A program made the position numbers and the translations under genes. The notes under the pieces are model-generated. The model was not told the DNA's origin. It made no database searches and was given only the letters and a program-made list of their open reading frames with translations. A stretch of 64,000 bases of DNA from Natronobacterium texcoconense (GTDB lineage: Archaea; Halobacteriota; Halobacteria; Halobacteriales; Natrialbaceae): assembly GCF_900104065.1 (NCBI RefSeq), contig NZ_FNLC01000006.1, positions 1 through 64,000 of the forward strand, read 5' to 3'. Shown in pieces: positions 42,525 to 50,499 of this stretch. Within the stretch, counting starts at the first letter, position 1. Each line of letters opens with the position of its first letter.

Positions 42525-43682
42525 TCAGAACAGGGCGTCTAGCTCGCCGCCGGTGTCCATCAGCGACGCGAACTCGTCCTGGGAGTTCGCCTGGACCGTC
42601 TCGGCGGTCTCCTGGGCTTCGATCGCGACCTGCTGGAGCTGGTCGACGCGTGGCACGTCGGTCACGCCCGACAGGAGGACGATCGCACCGACCTCGTTAC
42701 GATCCGACAGCGGGTAGTCACCGCCGCGGATCTCCATGCTGCCGGTTTCGTCCTCGAGCCACTGGCGTCCGCGTTCGACGCCCTTGCGGTTCAGGTGCTC
42801 TGCGGGCCCGGTGGCGACGACCAGCCCGCGATCCGCACTCGAAACGTCACAGGGAAGCGTCAGTCGGCCCAGCGTCGCCTTGCGGACGAGGCTGGTCATC
42901 CGGTTGGTCGCCTCGCCCTCGTCGAACCCCTCTTCGTCGCGCAACGACGAGAGGAGCCCACCGCTCGAGTCGACCGTCTCGCGAGCGTACCCGATCGTCG
43001 AGACGCCGCCTTCCAGGGTGTTTATGATCTCGGAGGAGTCGACGACGCTCTCTGCGACATCGTCGTCCTCGTCGACCTCGCCGGCGGCGAAGAGGAGGCC
43101 GAACCGTTCGACGATCTCGCGGTTGATCCGGTCGTAGCCGTCCTCGACTGACTCGCCGGCGCTACGCCAGACGTCGTTGTCGAACACGAGCAGGTTGTCG
43201 ACCTCGTGGACGAACGTCTGGAACGAACGGGCCGCGTTGAGGGTGTAGATTCCGCCCTCGTCCGTTCCGGGGAGGATGCCGAGCCCGTAGACGGGTTCGG
43301 TGTAGATTCGCTTGAGGTGTTTCGCGAGGACCGGCGCGCCGCCGCTTCCCGTGCCGCCGCCCATACCGGCGACGATGAGGAACGCGTCGATCTCGTGGAC
43401 GGGAACCCGGTCGATCGCGCCCTGGATCTCGTCGATGTCCTCTTCGGTCACGGTCGCGCCGAGTTCGTTGTCGGCGCCGACGCCGTGTCCTTTCACGCGT
43501 GCCTGTCCGATGAGAACGCGGTTCTGCTGGGGAACGTGCTCGAGTCCGTGGAGGTCCGTCGTCGCGGAGTTGACGGCGATAGCCGTCTCGACGAACCCGC
43601 CGTCGATCGATGCGTCGTACGCCAGGAACTCGTCGACGACCTTCCCGCCTGCCTGTCCGAAGCCGATAAGTGCGAGTTTCAT
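42525..43682 (-). CDS. CetZ tubulin-superfamily cytoskeletal protein
   Basis: This 385-residue GTPase is of the CetZ family, which controls haloarchaeal cell shape and motility. Seen: KLALIGFGQAGGKVVDEFL (loop 1), the tubulin signature GMGGGTGSG (106-114), ARSFQTFVHEVDNLLVFDND and YDRINREIVERF (nucleotide contact helix). It differs from FtsZ in that tubulin loop and lacks the FtsZ C-terminal peptide; its own end is GGELDALF. The ATG is at 43682. The 344-base gap upstream carries possible promoters for cetZ and for the binding-protein gene. Confidence 0.94.
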   Translation of the reverse strand: MKLALIGFGQAGGKVVDEFLAYDASIDGGFVETAIAVNSATTDLHGLEHVPQQNRVLIGQARVKGHGVGADNELGATVTEEDIDEIQGAIDRVPVHEIDAFLIVAGMGGGTGSGGAPVLAKHLKRIYTEPVYGLGILPGTDEGGIYTLNAARSFQTFVHEVDNLLVFDNDVWRSAGESVEDGYDRINREIVERFGLLFAAGEVDEDDDVAESVVDSSEIINTLEGGVSTIGYARETVDSSGGLLSSLRDEEGFDEGEATNRMTSLVRKATLGRLTLPCDVSSADRGLVVATGPAEHLNRKGVERGRQWLEDETGSMEIRGGDYPLSDRNEVGAIVLLSGVTDVPRVDQLQQVAIEAQETAETVQANSQDEFASLMDTGGELDALF

Positions 43683-44026: not shown

Positions 44027-45814
44027 ATGGAAGAGGTCGCACCGGCGACGACGCGGCGAGGGCTCCTCGCGAGTGTCAGCGCCGTCACTGTGAGTTCCCT
44101 CGCTGGCTGTTCGGAGCGGTTCTGGTCGCGGGCGGAGAACGTCGGCCCCGATCAGGTGTCGCTTACCATCAAGACGGTGCCAGCGGACGACGACGTCGCC
44201 GCTGCCACTATCATGAGTCGCCTCCGCGAGAACTTCCGGGAGGCCGGAATCGCCGTCACTCACGAACCCGTCCCCAAACCCGACATCTATCGTGACGTCC
44301 TCCTCGAGGGTGATTACGACGTGTTCGTCCTCCGGCACCCGGGACTGGATGACTACGATGGGTTACGGGAACTGCTCCACTCGGATTTCGTCAGCGAACT
44401 CGGCTGGCAGAACCCGTTTCGCTTCTCGGATCTGACTGCCGACGACCTCCTCGAACAACAACGACTGACGACCGGCGACGACCGACGCGAGGTCGTCGCG
44501 GAACTGATCGAGTATCTCGGTGAGACCGCTCCCTACACGACCGTCGCGTTCCCCACTCGAATCGGTGGCCGACGCGACGCGCTCGACGTCGACCGTCCGC
44601 CACGCTGCTCGATCGAGTACCTCGATCTCATGAGCCGCCAACTGGATGAAGGACCCAGGGAAGGGCCACTCGAGGTCGGCGTCTTCGGCGAGGGAATGGC
44701 CGAACGGCTGAACCCGATTTCCGTCGATTACGACGGGATCGACGGGTTGCTCGGACTGCTGTACGATCCGCTCGCCCGGCGAGTAGACGAGCGTCTGCTC
44801 CCGGAGGACGAGGATACGGACGAACGCGACTCTACCTACGTCCCGTGGCTTGCCGAGGAAATCGCCTGGGACGACTCGTCGGACCAGCTCCGGGCCGAAG
44901 TCACGCTCCGCGAAGGACTCGAGTGGCACGACGGCGAGAGCCTCGACGCGAACGACGTGGTGTTCACGATGCGATTGCTTCAGGATACGTCGATGGGCGA
45001 GATCGAAGACGGGCTCCCAGCACCCCGATACCGGAGCCGACAGACGGTCATCGAAACGGTCGACGTCCTGGACTCTCGGACGGTTCGACTTTCGTTCGGT
45101 GAGACGGTTCGACCGGTCGCCGAGCGGGTATTTTCGCTGCCTGTGCTGCCGGAACACGTCTGGGGGCCTCGTACTAACGTGGTCGCCGACCACCGGACCG
45201 AAGTGCTGACGAGCGACAACGAGAACCCGGTCGGCTCCGGCCTCTTCGAACTCGAGACGGTCGGAATGGACGAAATCGTCCTCGAGCCGTTCTCCGACCA
45301 CGTGTTCCGGGACGAGGACGCCGATCGGCCCGACGTCATCGAGGATTTCTCACAGTTTTCGGGGATCCGGTTCCAGATCAATCCGAACGTCGGTTCGATG
45401 CTCGACTCGCTTCTCGAGGGTGACATCGACGTGACCGGAGACAACGTTCCCCCGGGGAACGCGGACGCGATAACCGGCCACGACGAGGTGTCGGCGATTA
45501 GCACTCCGACGGACTCGTTTTACCTGATCGGCTACAACCACCATCACTCGGAACTCGGAAACCCGCGGTTCCGGGTGATCCTCTCGCGGCTGATCGATCG
45601 CAGTCACGTCGTCTCCGACGTCTTCGACGGGTTCGCCGACGCTGCGACGTCGCCAGGATCGCTCGTCGGTCTCTCCGAAAGCGAGTTCGACGTCGACGCC
45701 GATATTCCGATACTCGAGTTCCCTGGCTCCGACGGCGAACTCGACGTCGAACTCGTCCGGTCACTGTTCCAGGACGCCGGCTATCGGTACGAGGACGGCT
45801 CGTTGCTCGGTTGA
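44027..45814 (+). CDS. Oligopeptide-type (SBP_bac_5) binding lipoprotein with circularly permuted domain order
   Basis: This 595-residue Tat lipoprotein (RR 10-11, lipobox LAGC, C28) is of the DppA/OppA class. Its segments are in unusual order. Residues about 43-195 look like the usual END of such proteins: VSLTIKTVPADDD, LRENFREAGIAVTHEPV, VLLEGDYDVFVLRHPG, FRFSDLTADDLLEQQR, GETAPYTTVAFPT. Residues about 215-595 then begin like the usual START (GLLGLLYDPLARRV, YVPWLAEEIAWDD, EGLEWHDGESLDANDVVFTMRLL) and stop at LVRSLFQDAGYRYEDGSLLG, just where the missing end would continue. No permease or ATPase is nearby, so partners are unknown. ATG 44027. Confidence 0.85.
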   Translation: MEEVAPATTRRGLLASVSAVTVSSLAGCSERFWSRAENVGPDQVSLTIKTVPADDDVAAATIMSRLRENFREAGIAVTHEPVPKPDIYRDVLLEGDYDVFVLRHPGLDDYDGLRELLHSDFVSELGWQNPFRFSDLTADDLLEQQRLTTGDDRREVVAELIEYLGETAPYTTVAFPTRIGGRRDALDVDRPPRCSIEYLDLMSRQLDEGPREGPLEVGVFGEGMAERLNPISVDYDGIDGLLGLLYDPLARRVDERLLPEDEDTDERDSTYVPWLAEEIAWDDSSDQLRAEVTLREGLEWHDGESLDANDVVFTMRLLQDTSMGEIEDGLPAPRYRSRQTVIETVDVLDSRTVRLSFGETVRPVAERVFSLPVLPEHVWGPRTNVVADHRTEVLTSDNENPVGSGLFELETVGMDEIVLEPFSDHVFRDEDADRPDVIEDFSQFSGIRFQINPNVGSMLDSLLEGDIDVTGDNVPPGNADAITGHDEVSAISTPTDSFYLIGYNHHHSELGNPRFRVILSRLIDRSHVVSDVFDGFADAATSPGSLVGLSESEFDVDADIPILEFPGSDGELDVELVRSLFQDAGYRYEDGSLLG

Positions 45815-45907: not shown

Positions 45908-46783
45908 ATGGCTCTCGCCACTGTCGTTCTCGAACTCGCAGTCGTGGTGACGACGATGCTCGTGACCACGGCGCTGGTCGTGGTCGGTCCGCGACGGTTA
46001 GCGGCGGCGCTGACGGACGTTCGATGGCGACTCCAGATGTGCCTGCTCCCGCTTGCGGCACTCGCCGTCGTCTTGTTACTTCGATGGGGGACGGTCGACG
46101 TTGCGATCCGACTGGAGCGCCGGGTCGTCGGCTACAACATCACGCCGTACCTGTTCGAACTCGAGCGCGTGGTCTTCCCCGAGAATCCCGTCGCCGTCCT
46201 GCAGTCGTTCCAGTCGCCCGAACTGACGTCGTTTTTCGTGTTCATCTACATCTACGGCTACGCGTTCCTGCTTTTGTTTCCCTTCGTCGCGTACTTCTCC
46301 CTCGAGGAGATGGAGGAGCTGTCGACCCTGATCCTCTCGTTTACGGCCAACTACGGGATCGGACTGGTGTTTTACGTCTTCTTCATCGCTGTCGGGCCAC
46401 GAAACATCGCGCCGGATTTATTCGAGCCACTGCTGTACGACGCCTTTCCACAGGCAGGGTTTCTCACCTATCAGGTGAACCAGCCGACCAACGTCTTCCC
46501 CTCCCTGCACACGTCGCTGTCGGTGACCGTTTTCCTCCTCGCCTGGCTCACCCGCGACAAGTATCCGGCGTGGGTTCCGATCGCCGGTATCCTCGCGCTC
46601 AGCGTCTTGCTCTCGACGATGTACCTGGGAATCCACTGGTTCTCCGACGTCGTTGCCGGTACCGCGCTGGCTCTCGTCAGCGTCTATATCGGTCGCAACT
46701 ACACCGTCGCAGGCATCCTCCGCGGCGTTCGCGACTACGTCGACTCCCGCCTCGGACGCGAGGGTCAGCCCGGCGGGGAGTGA
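45908..46783 (+). CDS. PAP2-superfamily membrane enzyme (inositol-phosphoceramide-synthase-like)
   Basis: This 291-residue membrane protein has about seven hydrophobic segments and the PAP2 catalytic motifs: FPSLHTSLSVTVFLLAWL (H201, motif C2) and MYLGIHWFSDVVAG (H243, D247, motif C3). The layout, with long N-terminal helices, fits the Aur1/Ipt1-like subgroup that moves phospho-head groups between lipids or dephosphorylates them. In archaea these may act on archaeal phospholipids or sugar-phosphate carriers. ATG 45908. It stands between the binding-protein and photolyase genes on the same strand. Confidence 0.85.
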   Translation: MALATVVLELAVVVTTMLVTTALVVVGPRRLAAALTDVRWRLQMCLLPLAALAVVLLLRWGTVDVAIRLERRVVGYNITPYLFELERVVFPENPVAVLQSFQSPELTSFFVFIYIYGYAFLLLFPFVAYFSLEEMEELSTLILSFTANYGIGLVFYVFFIAVGPRNIAPDLFEPLLYDAFPQAGFLTYQVNQPTNVFPSLHTSLSVTVFLLAWLTRDKYPAWVPIAGILALSVLLSTMYLGIHWFSDVVAGTALALVSVYIGRNYTVAGILRGVRDYVDSRLGREGQPGGE

Positions 46784-48314: not shown

Positions 48315-48776
48315 ATGGAAGCGCTCAACACTCGCATTCGCTATCTCTGGATTGCACAGGGGGTGATCCTGGCGGCCATCCTGGGCGTCGTGCTCGCGGC
48401 CGTCGATCAGTGGATCGTCACGGTCCCGACGGCCGTCCTCGGTGGAATCGTCGCGGTCGTCCTCCTCGCGGGAACCGCGTACGCGATTCGCCTCTACCAG
48501 ATCTGGCGGTTCGAACTCCAGTCGGACGCGCTGTATCTCGAGCGCGGCGTCGTCACGTTCGTCGAGACAGCAGTGCCGTTCGTTCGCGTCCAGCACGTCG
48601 ACACACAGTTCGGCCCGATCGAGCGTGCGCTCGGTCTCTCGAGCGTGGTCGTCTACACCGCGGGATCGCGGAACGCGGACGTACGGATCCCGGGGCTGAC
48701 CCCCGACAGGGCACGGGAACTCCAGGACACGCTACGGGACCTCGCCGTCGAGAGCGAGGCCGACGACGCAGTCTAA
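48315..48776 (+). CDS. bPH2 (DUF304) membrane protein, short
   Basis: This 153-residue protein has two N-terminal hydrophobic helices (about 10-30, 33-55) and a bPH2 domain (about 60-150: RFELQSDALYLERGVVTFVETAVPFVRVQHVDTQFGPIERALGLSSVVVYTAG). It resembles bacterial YdbS. The stop (TAA) is one base before the ATG of the larger partner, which resembles YdbT, so the two form an operon. In bacteria this pair is implicated in resistance to certain bacteriocins or envelope stress; the archaeal role is unknown. Confidence 0.88.
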   Translation: MEALNTRIRYLWIAQGVILAAILGVVLAAVDQWIVTVPTAVLGGIVAVVLLAGTAYAIRLYQIWRFELQSDALYLERGVVTFVETAVPFVRVQHVDTQFGPIERALGLSSVVVYTAGSRNADVRIPGLTPDRARELQDTLRDLAVESEADDAV

Positions 48777-48777
48777 T

Positions 48778-50499
48778 ATGAACCGGCTCCATCCACTCAG
48801 CGCGCTCACGTACGGCCTCCAGTACGGGTTCATCTGGCTCTGGATTCCGGTCTTTCTCGTCGTCGTGCTGGCTGGCGTCTTCGATCCGGTGAGTGCCGCC
48901 TGGTTCCCCATTGCCGCACCCATCGGATTCCTTCTCGGCGCGGCGTACGGTGTCGCCTACTACTACCGCTTTGGCTACGAGATAACGTCCGATACTGCCG
49001 ACGTCTCTTCGGGGGTCTTCGCCCGTCGCTCTCGTGAGATCCCGTACGGTCGGATCCAGAACGTCGACATCAGACAGAGCGTCTTTCAGCGTCTGCTCGG
49101 TCTCGCGACCGTCTCGATCGAGACCGCAGGTGGGGGCAACACCGAAGCGACGCTGAACTTCGTCAGCGAAGACGAGGCGAACCGTCTTCAAAGCGAGATC
49201 CGACGACGCACTGCCGAGGCGAAGGGGCGACGACAGGAACGGAAACGCGACCGTCGTGCGGCCGCCGACGCCGACGCGCAGGCCGACGCCCCGACCGACG
49301 TCGAGGGCGAACACGACGAGTACGCCGAACCGGTCGAAACCGATCGGGAAACCGTCGACGACGCGACTCGCGTCCCCCCGGACCCAGACGACGTCGACGA
49401 TCACGAACCCGCGGCTGACCGGGAGCCAGCCGTCGGATCGGACCCGACGACCCATCCCCGGAAACAGCGGCTGTTCGACCTCGAGGCCAGGGAACTGCTG
49501 CTCTATTCGTTCACCTCGTTCCGACCTGCGGCCGTCGCTGCAGTCCTGTTTATCTTCTTTCTCGCGACTGACCAGATCCTCGAGTTCTTCGTCACCGCTG
49601 CCCAGCCGTTCGGCGGACCGGCCGACCTCGAGACCGGCGATACGGGAAGTTACGGCATCCTGTCGATCGTCTCGGCGATCATCAGTATTCTCGTCACCTA
49701 CCTGCTCAGCGTCGCGTACACGTTCGCGACGTACTACGACTTCCGGCTCGGGCGGGTCGGCGAGGACTTCGTCTACGAGCGCGGACTGCTCCAGCGCTAC
49801 AGCGGCTCGATCCCCTCTGAGAAGGTACAGTCGATTACGGTCACCGACAACCCGATTCAGCGCCTGATCGAGTATGCCGGACTCTGGGTCGAAACTGCCG
49901 GCTACGGCCCCGAGAGCAACGGCGGGAGCCAGTCTGCAGTGCCGCTGGCCCAGCATCGACGGGTCTACACGTTCGCGGAGAACCTCACCGGCGTCGAGAC
50001 GCCGAAGTTCGAGAGTCCACCACCGATCGCCCGCCGGCGATATCTGGTCCGGTACTCGCTGCTTGCGGCCGCGTTCGTCGCAGTCGCGTTCGGCGCCGCC
50101 TACACGACGGCGTTCGAGGGCTGGTACTTCGTCGCGGTCGTCTTTCTGGCAGTGCCGCCGGCAGCCCACCTCCGATACGTCAACCTGGGCTACTACGTCG
50201 GCGAGGACCACCTCGTGATCCGCGGTGGCTTCTGGCGGCGACGGACGACGGTGATTCCCTACTACCGAATCCAGACGGTCTCGACGCGGCGGTCGATCTT
50301 CCAGCGGCGACTCGGTATCGCGTCGCTGGTCGTCGATACGGCCAGTTCCCGCACGTTCTTCTGGTCGCCGACGACGATCTACGATATCGATCTCGAGGAC
50401 GCACGAGACGTTCACCGAACCAGCCGCAAGCGCCTCCAGACGGCGCTGCAAGAACGGGCGGCCGCCGACGACGTCGGCCTCTCCGTCGACTTTACCTGA
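48778..50499 (+). CDS. bPH2 (DUF304) membrane protein, long, three PH repeats
   Basis: This 573-residue protein is YdbT-like. It has pairs of hydrophobic helices followed by bPH2 domains at about 60-140 (GYEITSDTADVSSGVFARRSREIPYGRIQNVDIRQSVFQRLLGL), about 320-400 (YYDFRLGRVGEDFVYERGLLQRYSGSIPSEKVQSITVTDNPIQRLIEYAGLWVETAGYG) and about 475-540 (YYVGEDHLVIRGGFWRRRTTVIPYYRIQTVSTRRSIFQRRLGI). Between the first and second is an acidic disordered insert (about 155-235). It starts one base after the shorter partner's stop. Confidence 0.88.
   Translation: MNRLHPLSALTYGLQYGFIWLWIPVFLVVVLAGVFDPVSAAWFPIAAPIGFLLGAAYGVAYYYRFGYEITSDTADVSSGVFARRSREIPYGRIQNVDIRQSVFQRLLGLATVSIETAGGGNTEATLNFVSEDEANRLQSEIRRRTAEAKGRRQERKRDRRAAADADAQADAPTDVEGEHDEYAEPVETDRETVDDATRVPPDPDDVDDHEPAADREPAVGSDPTTHPRKQRLFDLEARELLLYSFTSFRPAAVAAVLFIFFLATDQILEFFVTAAQPFGGPADLETGDTGSYGILSIVSAIISILVTYLLSVAYTFATYYDFRLGRVGEDFVYERGLLQRYSGSIPSEKVQSITVTDNPIQRLIEYAGLWVETAGYGPESNGGSQSAVPLAQHRRVYTFAENLTGVETPKFESPPPIARRRYLVRYSLLAAAFVAVAFGAAYTTAFEGWYFVAVVFLAVPPAAHLRYVNLGYYVGEDHLVIRGGFWRRRTTVIPYYRIQTVSTRRSIFQRRLGIASLVVDTASSRTFFWSPTTIYDIDLEDARDVHRTSRKRLQTALQERAAADDVGLSVDFT

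Follow-up and report, generated by a model that had tools for sequence, protein, structure and literature searches.

The open reading frame at 44027-45814 on the forward strand of the window (the whole 64,000 nt stretch of Natronobacterium texcoconense DNA analysed here) raises the question of whether a family-5 solute-binding protein (SBP) can carry its C-terminal lobe segment at the N-terminus and, if so, whether this rearrangement makes the protein a distinct receptor. The first-pass annotation had proposed the relocated segment and suggested that the protein may be a distinct sensor or receptor. The 595 aa ORF is conserved at full length among haloarchaea and is therefore a real gene. The features of the locus are listed below.

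44027-45814, + strand: circularly permuted family-5 solute-binding lipoprotein, 595 aa (ORF, permuted order, AlphaFold2 model, conserved family)
44027-44110, + strand: Tat signal peptide with lipobox, residues 1-28 (RR at 10-11, Cys28)
44156-44614, + strand: relocated segment, residues 44-196, the usual C-terminal part of an SBP (collinear profile 386-545; aligns with the C-terminal part of DppA)
44615-44647, + strand: new junction of old C-terminus to old N-terminus, at about residues 197-207 (between the two matched segments)
44648-45811, + strand: residues 208-595, the usual N-terminal and middle part of an SBP, ending at the break AGYRYEDGSLLG (VIA-align to AppA; Pfam SBP_bac_5 1-283)
45908-46783, + strand: partner gene for a PAP2_3/AUR1-like integral membrane phosphatase or phosphotransferase, 291 aa (PF14378; fold; adjacency)
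46394-46405, + strand: PAP2 conserved motif GPRN (residues 163-166), on the predicted extracellular side (invariant in 46/46)
46499-46510, + strand: PAP2 catalytic motif PSLH, with His201 (invariant in 46/46)
46613-46648, + strand: PAP2 catalytic motif STMYLGIHWFSD, with His243 and Asp247 (both invariant in 46/46)

Divergent from the SBP gene lies a CetZ tubulin-like gene (window 42525-43682), which was present in 17 of 80 loci and is probably mere synteny. Two adjoining bPH_2 (bacterial-PH-domain) membrane proteins are encoded at window 48315-50499, downstream of a photolyase gene and outside the SBP-PAP2 pair.

Segment order was examined with a collinear family-5 SBP profile, for which seven collinear SBPs encoded in the same genome served as input. 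Residues 44-196 matched profile positions 386-545 (16.3 bits) and residues 268-587 matched positions 87-383 (101.2 bits), so that the two pieces are complementary. Rotation of the SBP gave a single match, of residues 63-544 to profile positions 87-543, scoring 134.3 bits; shuffling the moved segment in the rotated protein gave 104.3 bits, leaving the unshuffled rotated sequence approximately 30 bits higher. The first-pass annotation had proposed looking for the same order in other haloarchaea, and in 20 of 20 family members tested rotation produced one continuous match above the shuffled control, with a gain of roughly 10-40 bits. The Pfam SBP_bac_5 search that it had also proposed returned two partial matches. 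Residues 270-591 corresponded to positions 1-283 of PF00496 (130.4 bits, against a gathering cut-off of 32.4), whilst a second stretch, residues ~48-104, corresponded to positions 291-346 and is weak alone (E 0.078). The same reversed order stood out more clearly in two paralogues from the same genome (E 2.9e-5 and 9.9e-4), and likewise in a more remote permuted relative (E 4.9e-11). The controls, Escherichia coli DppA, GsiB and NikA, matched the profile collinearly. When the rotated SBP is aligned directly with DppA, the result is convincing by eye. The SBP at 44027-45814 does not have the collinear segment order and, as read from its sequence, its circular permutation is real. The profile matches, the rotation, the Pfam order and the superposition of residues 208-595 bear out the original claim of a C-terminal lobe segment at the N-terminus, and the break falls exactly where it had been placed, after AGYRYEDGSLLG.

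An AlphaFold2 model built from 55 sequences predicted that the SBP folds as one protein (pLDDT 89.6, pTM 0.87), with pLDDT below 50 in the signal peptide only. VIA-align placed residues 208-595 on residues 17-355 of the 504-residue chain of AppA (1xoc; Z 21.9). Within the model, residues 208-595 superpose on SBPs and residues 44-196 are matched by sequence; as the structural alignments each cover one run of residues, the permutation of 44-196 is a sequence-based assignment. We also considered whether a permuted SBP had already been solved, and no PDB chain listed for one permuted alphaproteobacterial SBP covers its full length collinearly. The Tat motif and lipobox, TTRRGLLASVSAVTVSSLAGC, were present in 55 of 55 aligned sequences, with R10, R11, G27 and C28 invariant, in agreement with the lipoprotein signal originally reported.

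The permutation is not a quirk of this gene alone. Permuted SBPs with the same break, after AGYxYxxDGxL, are encoded in haloarchaeal operons together with DppB and DppC, and often with DppD and DppF, and one such ABC-linked protein (L049) belongs to the N. texcoconense genome itself. The same break was found in alphaproteobacterial plasmid operons of Nitratireductor, Ketogulonicigenium and Roseomonas. Because the same order and break occur in ordinary Dpp-type operons of haloarchaea and alphaproteobacteria, the permutation is not what makes the SBP a distinct receptor. The first-pass interpretation was therefore right in part: the permutation, the Tat lipoprotein and the lack of a linked transporter stand, whilst the permutation as the mark of a distinct receptor does not.

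Several further observations concern the alphaproteobacterial proteins. Permuted SBPs are carried on plasmids at L161, L162, L163 and L172, the first three being annotated as plain ABC substrate-binding proteins. An M28 peptidase gene lies near the permuted SBP in L162, L163 and L173, and in Neorhizobium galegae VafX2 (L173:5013-6666) the permuted SBP is annotated as two genes, a hypothetical protein and an SBP, through either a split of the gene or an error of annotation.

A second break point, before the preceding helix 'eeAkxLLxxAG', was found in four ABC-linked haloarchaeal SBPs (L155-L158). A tree of the core shared by all these proteins joins the four to a haloarchaeal SBP of collinear order (99/92), which suggests an independent permutation event, and unites the PAP2-linked SBPs in a single clade (100/98) on the first-break side. 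A single origin for the first-break class was not rejected (p 0.29). One origin for all permuted SBPs, covering both break classes, was disfavoured at p 0.014, for a group named after seeing the tree and with long branches. The second break point, the grouping with a collinear SBP and this p value together indicate that the permutation probably arose at least twice. No earlier description of natural permutation of family-5 SBPs, and no earlier account of SBP-PAP2 pairs, was found in the open-access papers searched, a set that leaves out most subscription papers.

The first-pass annotation had seen no permease or ATPase near the gene, and indeed no dipeptide permease or ATPase adjoins the SBP in the window; across the PAP2-linked family, DppB or DppC was found near 2 of 80 loci. 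It had not included the conserved partner gene at 45908-46783. Three permuted SBPs of the window's family are encoded in the genome, each followed on the same strand by a gene for a PAP2-type membrane protein, and the genome's three best PAP2_3 matches are exactly the PAP2 proteins behind those SBPs. Among 97 family ORFs (80 named loci), PAP2 was directly downstream of 90 and directly upstream of five, each of the five being the second SBP of an SBP-PAP2-SBP array; one ORF lay at a contig end and one had no PAP2 gene. An SBP without an adjoining PAP2 gene was found at L091, in one genome. Across 41 whole genomes, PAP2 lay directly downstream of 60 of the 63 SBPs, and 59 of 68 related PAP2 genes followed an SBP. 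Two annotated records carry the same pair, with the partner named 'inositol phosphorylceramide synthase' or 'phosphatase PAP2 family protein'. Tandem copies were duplicated as SBP-PAP2 pairs, and the divergence of SBP and PAP2 was correlated (r 0.91, 88 pairs), as is partly expected from common descent. The PAP2-linked subfamily is set apart by its PAP2 pairing, not by its permutation.

The arrays in which two SBPs share one PAP2 gene were observed in Natrinema (L104, L117, L127, L128 and L130). PAP2 paralogues without a permuted SBP (L184-L191) lie in other neighbourhoods and form a separate group. Arylsulfotransferase-family genes occur near the pair in a few lineages (L193, L194, L091, L092, L096 and L098); as a third component they were rejected, being present at only 4 of 80 loci and in two annotated plasmid records. 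ABC ATPase matches near 16 loci were likewise set aside as partners, since their sequences read for the most part as another kind of ATPase, of sugar type, belonging to a syntenic block. An apparent SBP-PAP2 gene fusion, a 1336 aa open frame in one genome (G028), proved to be overlapping frames in GC-rich DNA.

The window's family was present in 18 of 197 sampled genomes of the phylum, all of them from the taxonomic order to which the window belongs. All 80 named loci are haloarchaeal, and the genomes sampled from the rest of the phylum, outside the haloarchaea, gave no match at E 1e-60.

The partner protein matched PF14378 (PAP2_3) with 67.5 bits against a cut-off of 27, and its predicted model had a pLDDT of 92.9. 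Among solved structures AUR1 has the nearest fold (Z 20.2; rmsd 2.5 over 216 residues), followed by LpxE (Z 15.7) and then by other PAP2 phosphatases such as PgpB (Z 12.5). The His-His-Asp triad is intact: H201, H243 and D247 were invariant in 46 of 46 relatives, as were GPRN, PSLH and the His and Asp of STMYLGIHWxxD. The charge distribution predicts an outward-facing position for the catalytic loops, on the side of the membrane where the lipoprotein would lie.

We propose, with a probability of about 0.5, that an SBP of an ABC importer was co-opted as a ligand-binding accessory subunit of the adjoining AUR1-like PAP2 membrane enzyme, and that it would work in the manner of mycobacterial LpqW. 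The SBP is almost never found without a PAP2 gene, yet PAP2 paralogues without the SBP exist, and the SBP consequently looks like the accessory partner. The source would have been a Dpp-type ABC importer. Tethered at the outer face of the membrane, the SBP would sit beside an enzyme with a predicted outward active site, and its cleft may accommodate a lipid headgroup or a lipid-linked intermediate, or else an extracellular signal. It could present this ligand to the PAP2 enzyme or switch the enzyme on, and in the outer leaflet the enzyme would then remove or transfer a phospho-headgroup. Collinear SBPs carry their lipid anchor on the first lobe. In the permuted protein a second-lobe strand follows immediately after the anchor, so that the SBP would face the membrane in a different orientation. 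Slightly less probable than this recruitment, and put forward tentatively, is the wider reading of a two-gene envelope system that, on the searches made, occurs in Halobacteria only. Here a permuted SBP formerly of ABC type would be a dedicated subunit of an AUR1-like outer-leaflet phosphotransferase or phosphatase, the permuted class having arisen at least twice.

The strongest competitor to an accessory subunit is that the protein is an ordinary importer SBP that happens to be permuted and delivers solute to an ABC permease encoded elsewhere, its adjacency to PAP2 reflecting co-transcription only. Family-5 SBPs can serve transporters encoded elsewhere, and co-transcription and common descent can produce adjacency and co-divergence even in proteins that form no complex. 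The nearest permuted relatives are ABC-linked, the genome holds a complete DppBCDF operon and other SBPs, and the SBP fold looks intact in the predicted model. However, the PAP2-linked clade has kept PAP2 and not a permease (DppB or DppC at 2 of 80 loci, against PAP2 after 90 of 97 ORFs), and we regard this explanation as unlikely.

Less probable still is a scavenging unit, in which PAP2 would dephosphorylate extracellular or membrane phospho-compounds and the SBP would capture the product for uptake by a separate system. Both the strict pairing and the predicted location of SBP and PAP2 on the same membrane face are consistent with such a unit, but neighbourhood clustering revealed no transporter as a general neighbour of the pair. 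We give marginally less credence to the original suggestion of a free-standing sensor or receptor, an SBP that would signal on its own. Its Tat lipoprotein nature and the lack of a linked transporter are compatible with that role; however, the neighbourhood comparison yielded no conserved signalling partner, and the partner that is conserved is a membrane enzyme, making a free-standing sensor less likely than a subunit serving that enzyme. Finally, an artefact of frame, assembly or alignment, to which the weak Pfam match of the relocated segment on its own might have pointed, is refuted by relatives collinear with the window's SBP over their full length in dozens of haloarchaeal genomes, by the single match after rotation in every member tested, by collinear controls that behave as expected and by a confident whole-protein model.

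Family-5 SBPs are among the most numerous prokaryotic receptors, and the permuted SBPs encountered here bear the plain label 'ABC transporter substrate-binding protein', with the result that the permutation goes unseen. Natural permutation shifts the membrane anchor to the other lobe, and thus offers a ready-made test of how important the orientation of an SBP is. If the PAP2 pairing is functional, haloarchaea would have a receptor-controlled lipid-modifying enzyme, and the pair would exemplify the re-use of an uptake protein. The phosphatase that finishes inositol phospholipids has been described as unidentified (PMC9385802), making these PAP2 enzymes candidates worth assaying.

Compared with known systems, the partner shares its fold, the PSLH and HxxxD motifs of the His-His-Asp triad, and PF14378 with AUR1 inositol phosphorylceramide synthase and other PAP2_3 enzymes. 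However, sequence identity to AUR1 is low (16%), and the likeness in fold does not fix the reaction of the partner. In yeast, AUR1 has a partner of its own, Kei1 (in entry 9ivc). The SBP resembles the family-5 ABC SBPs (Pfam SBP_bac_5: DppA, OppA, NikA and AppA) in the fold of residues 208-595, in its Pfam score and in its lipoprotein export signal, but differs from them in its permuted segment order and in having no linked permease or ATPase. The DppA aspartate that we take to hold the amino end of the peptide aligns with a residue that is not acidic here. The permuted SBPs of Dpp-type ABC operons (L049, L141-L160 and L161-L163) share the permutation, most with the same break; unlike the SBP studied here, they are mostly linked to Dpp-type permeases and ATPases, without PAP2, and lie outside the PAP2-linked clade. 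LpqW of Mycobacterium (PDB 2grv) has the same fold (Z 19.7) and is also a lipoprotein, but it is bacterial, with a role in glycolipid mannosylation, and its N-terminal part aligns with residues 211-595, as in collinear SBPs, so that it is not permuted in this way. By steering a glycolipid pathway of the mycobacterial membrane (PMC3229680, PMC10928101), LpqW nonetheless sets a precedent for lipoproteins with an SBP fold that act in membrane lipid pathways.
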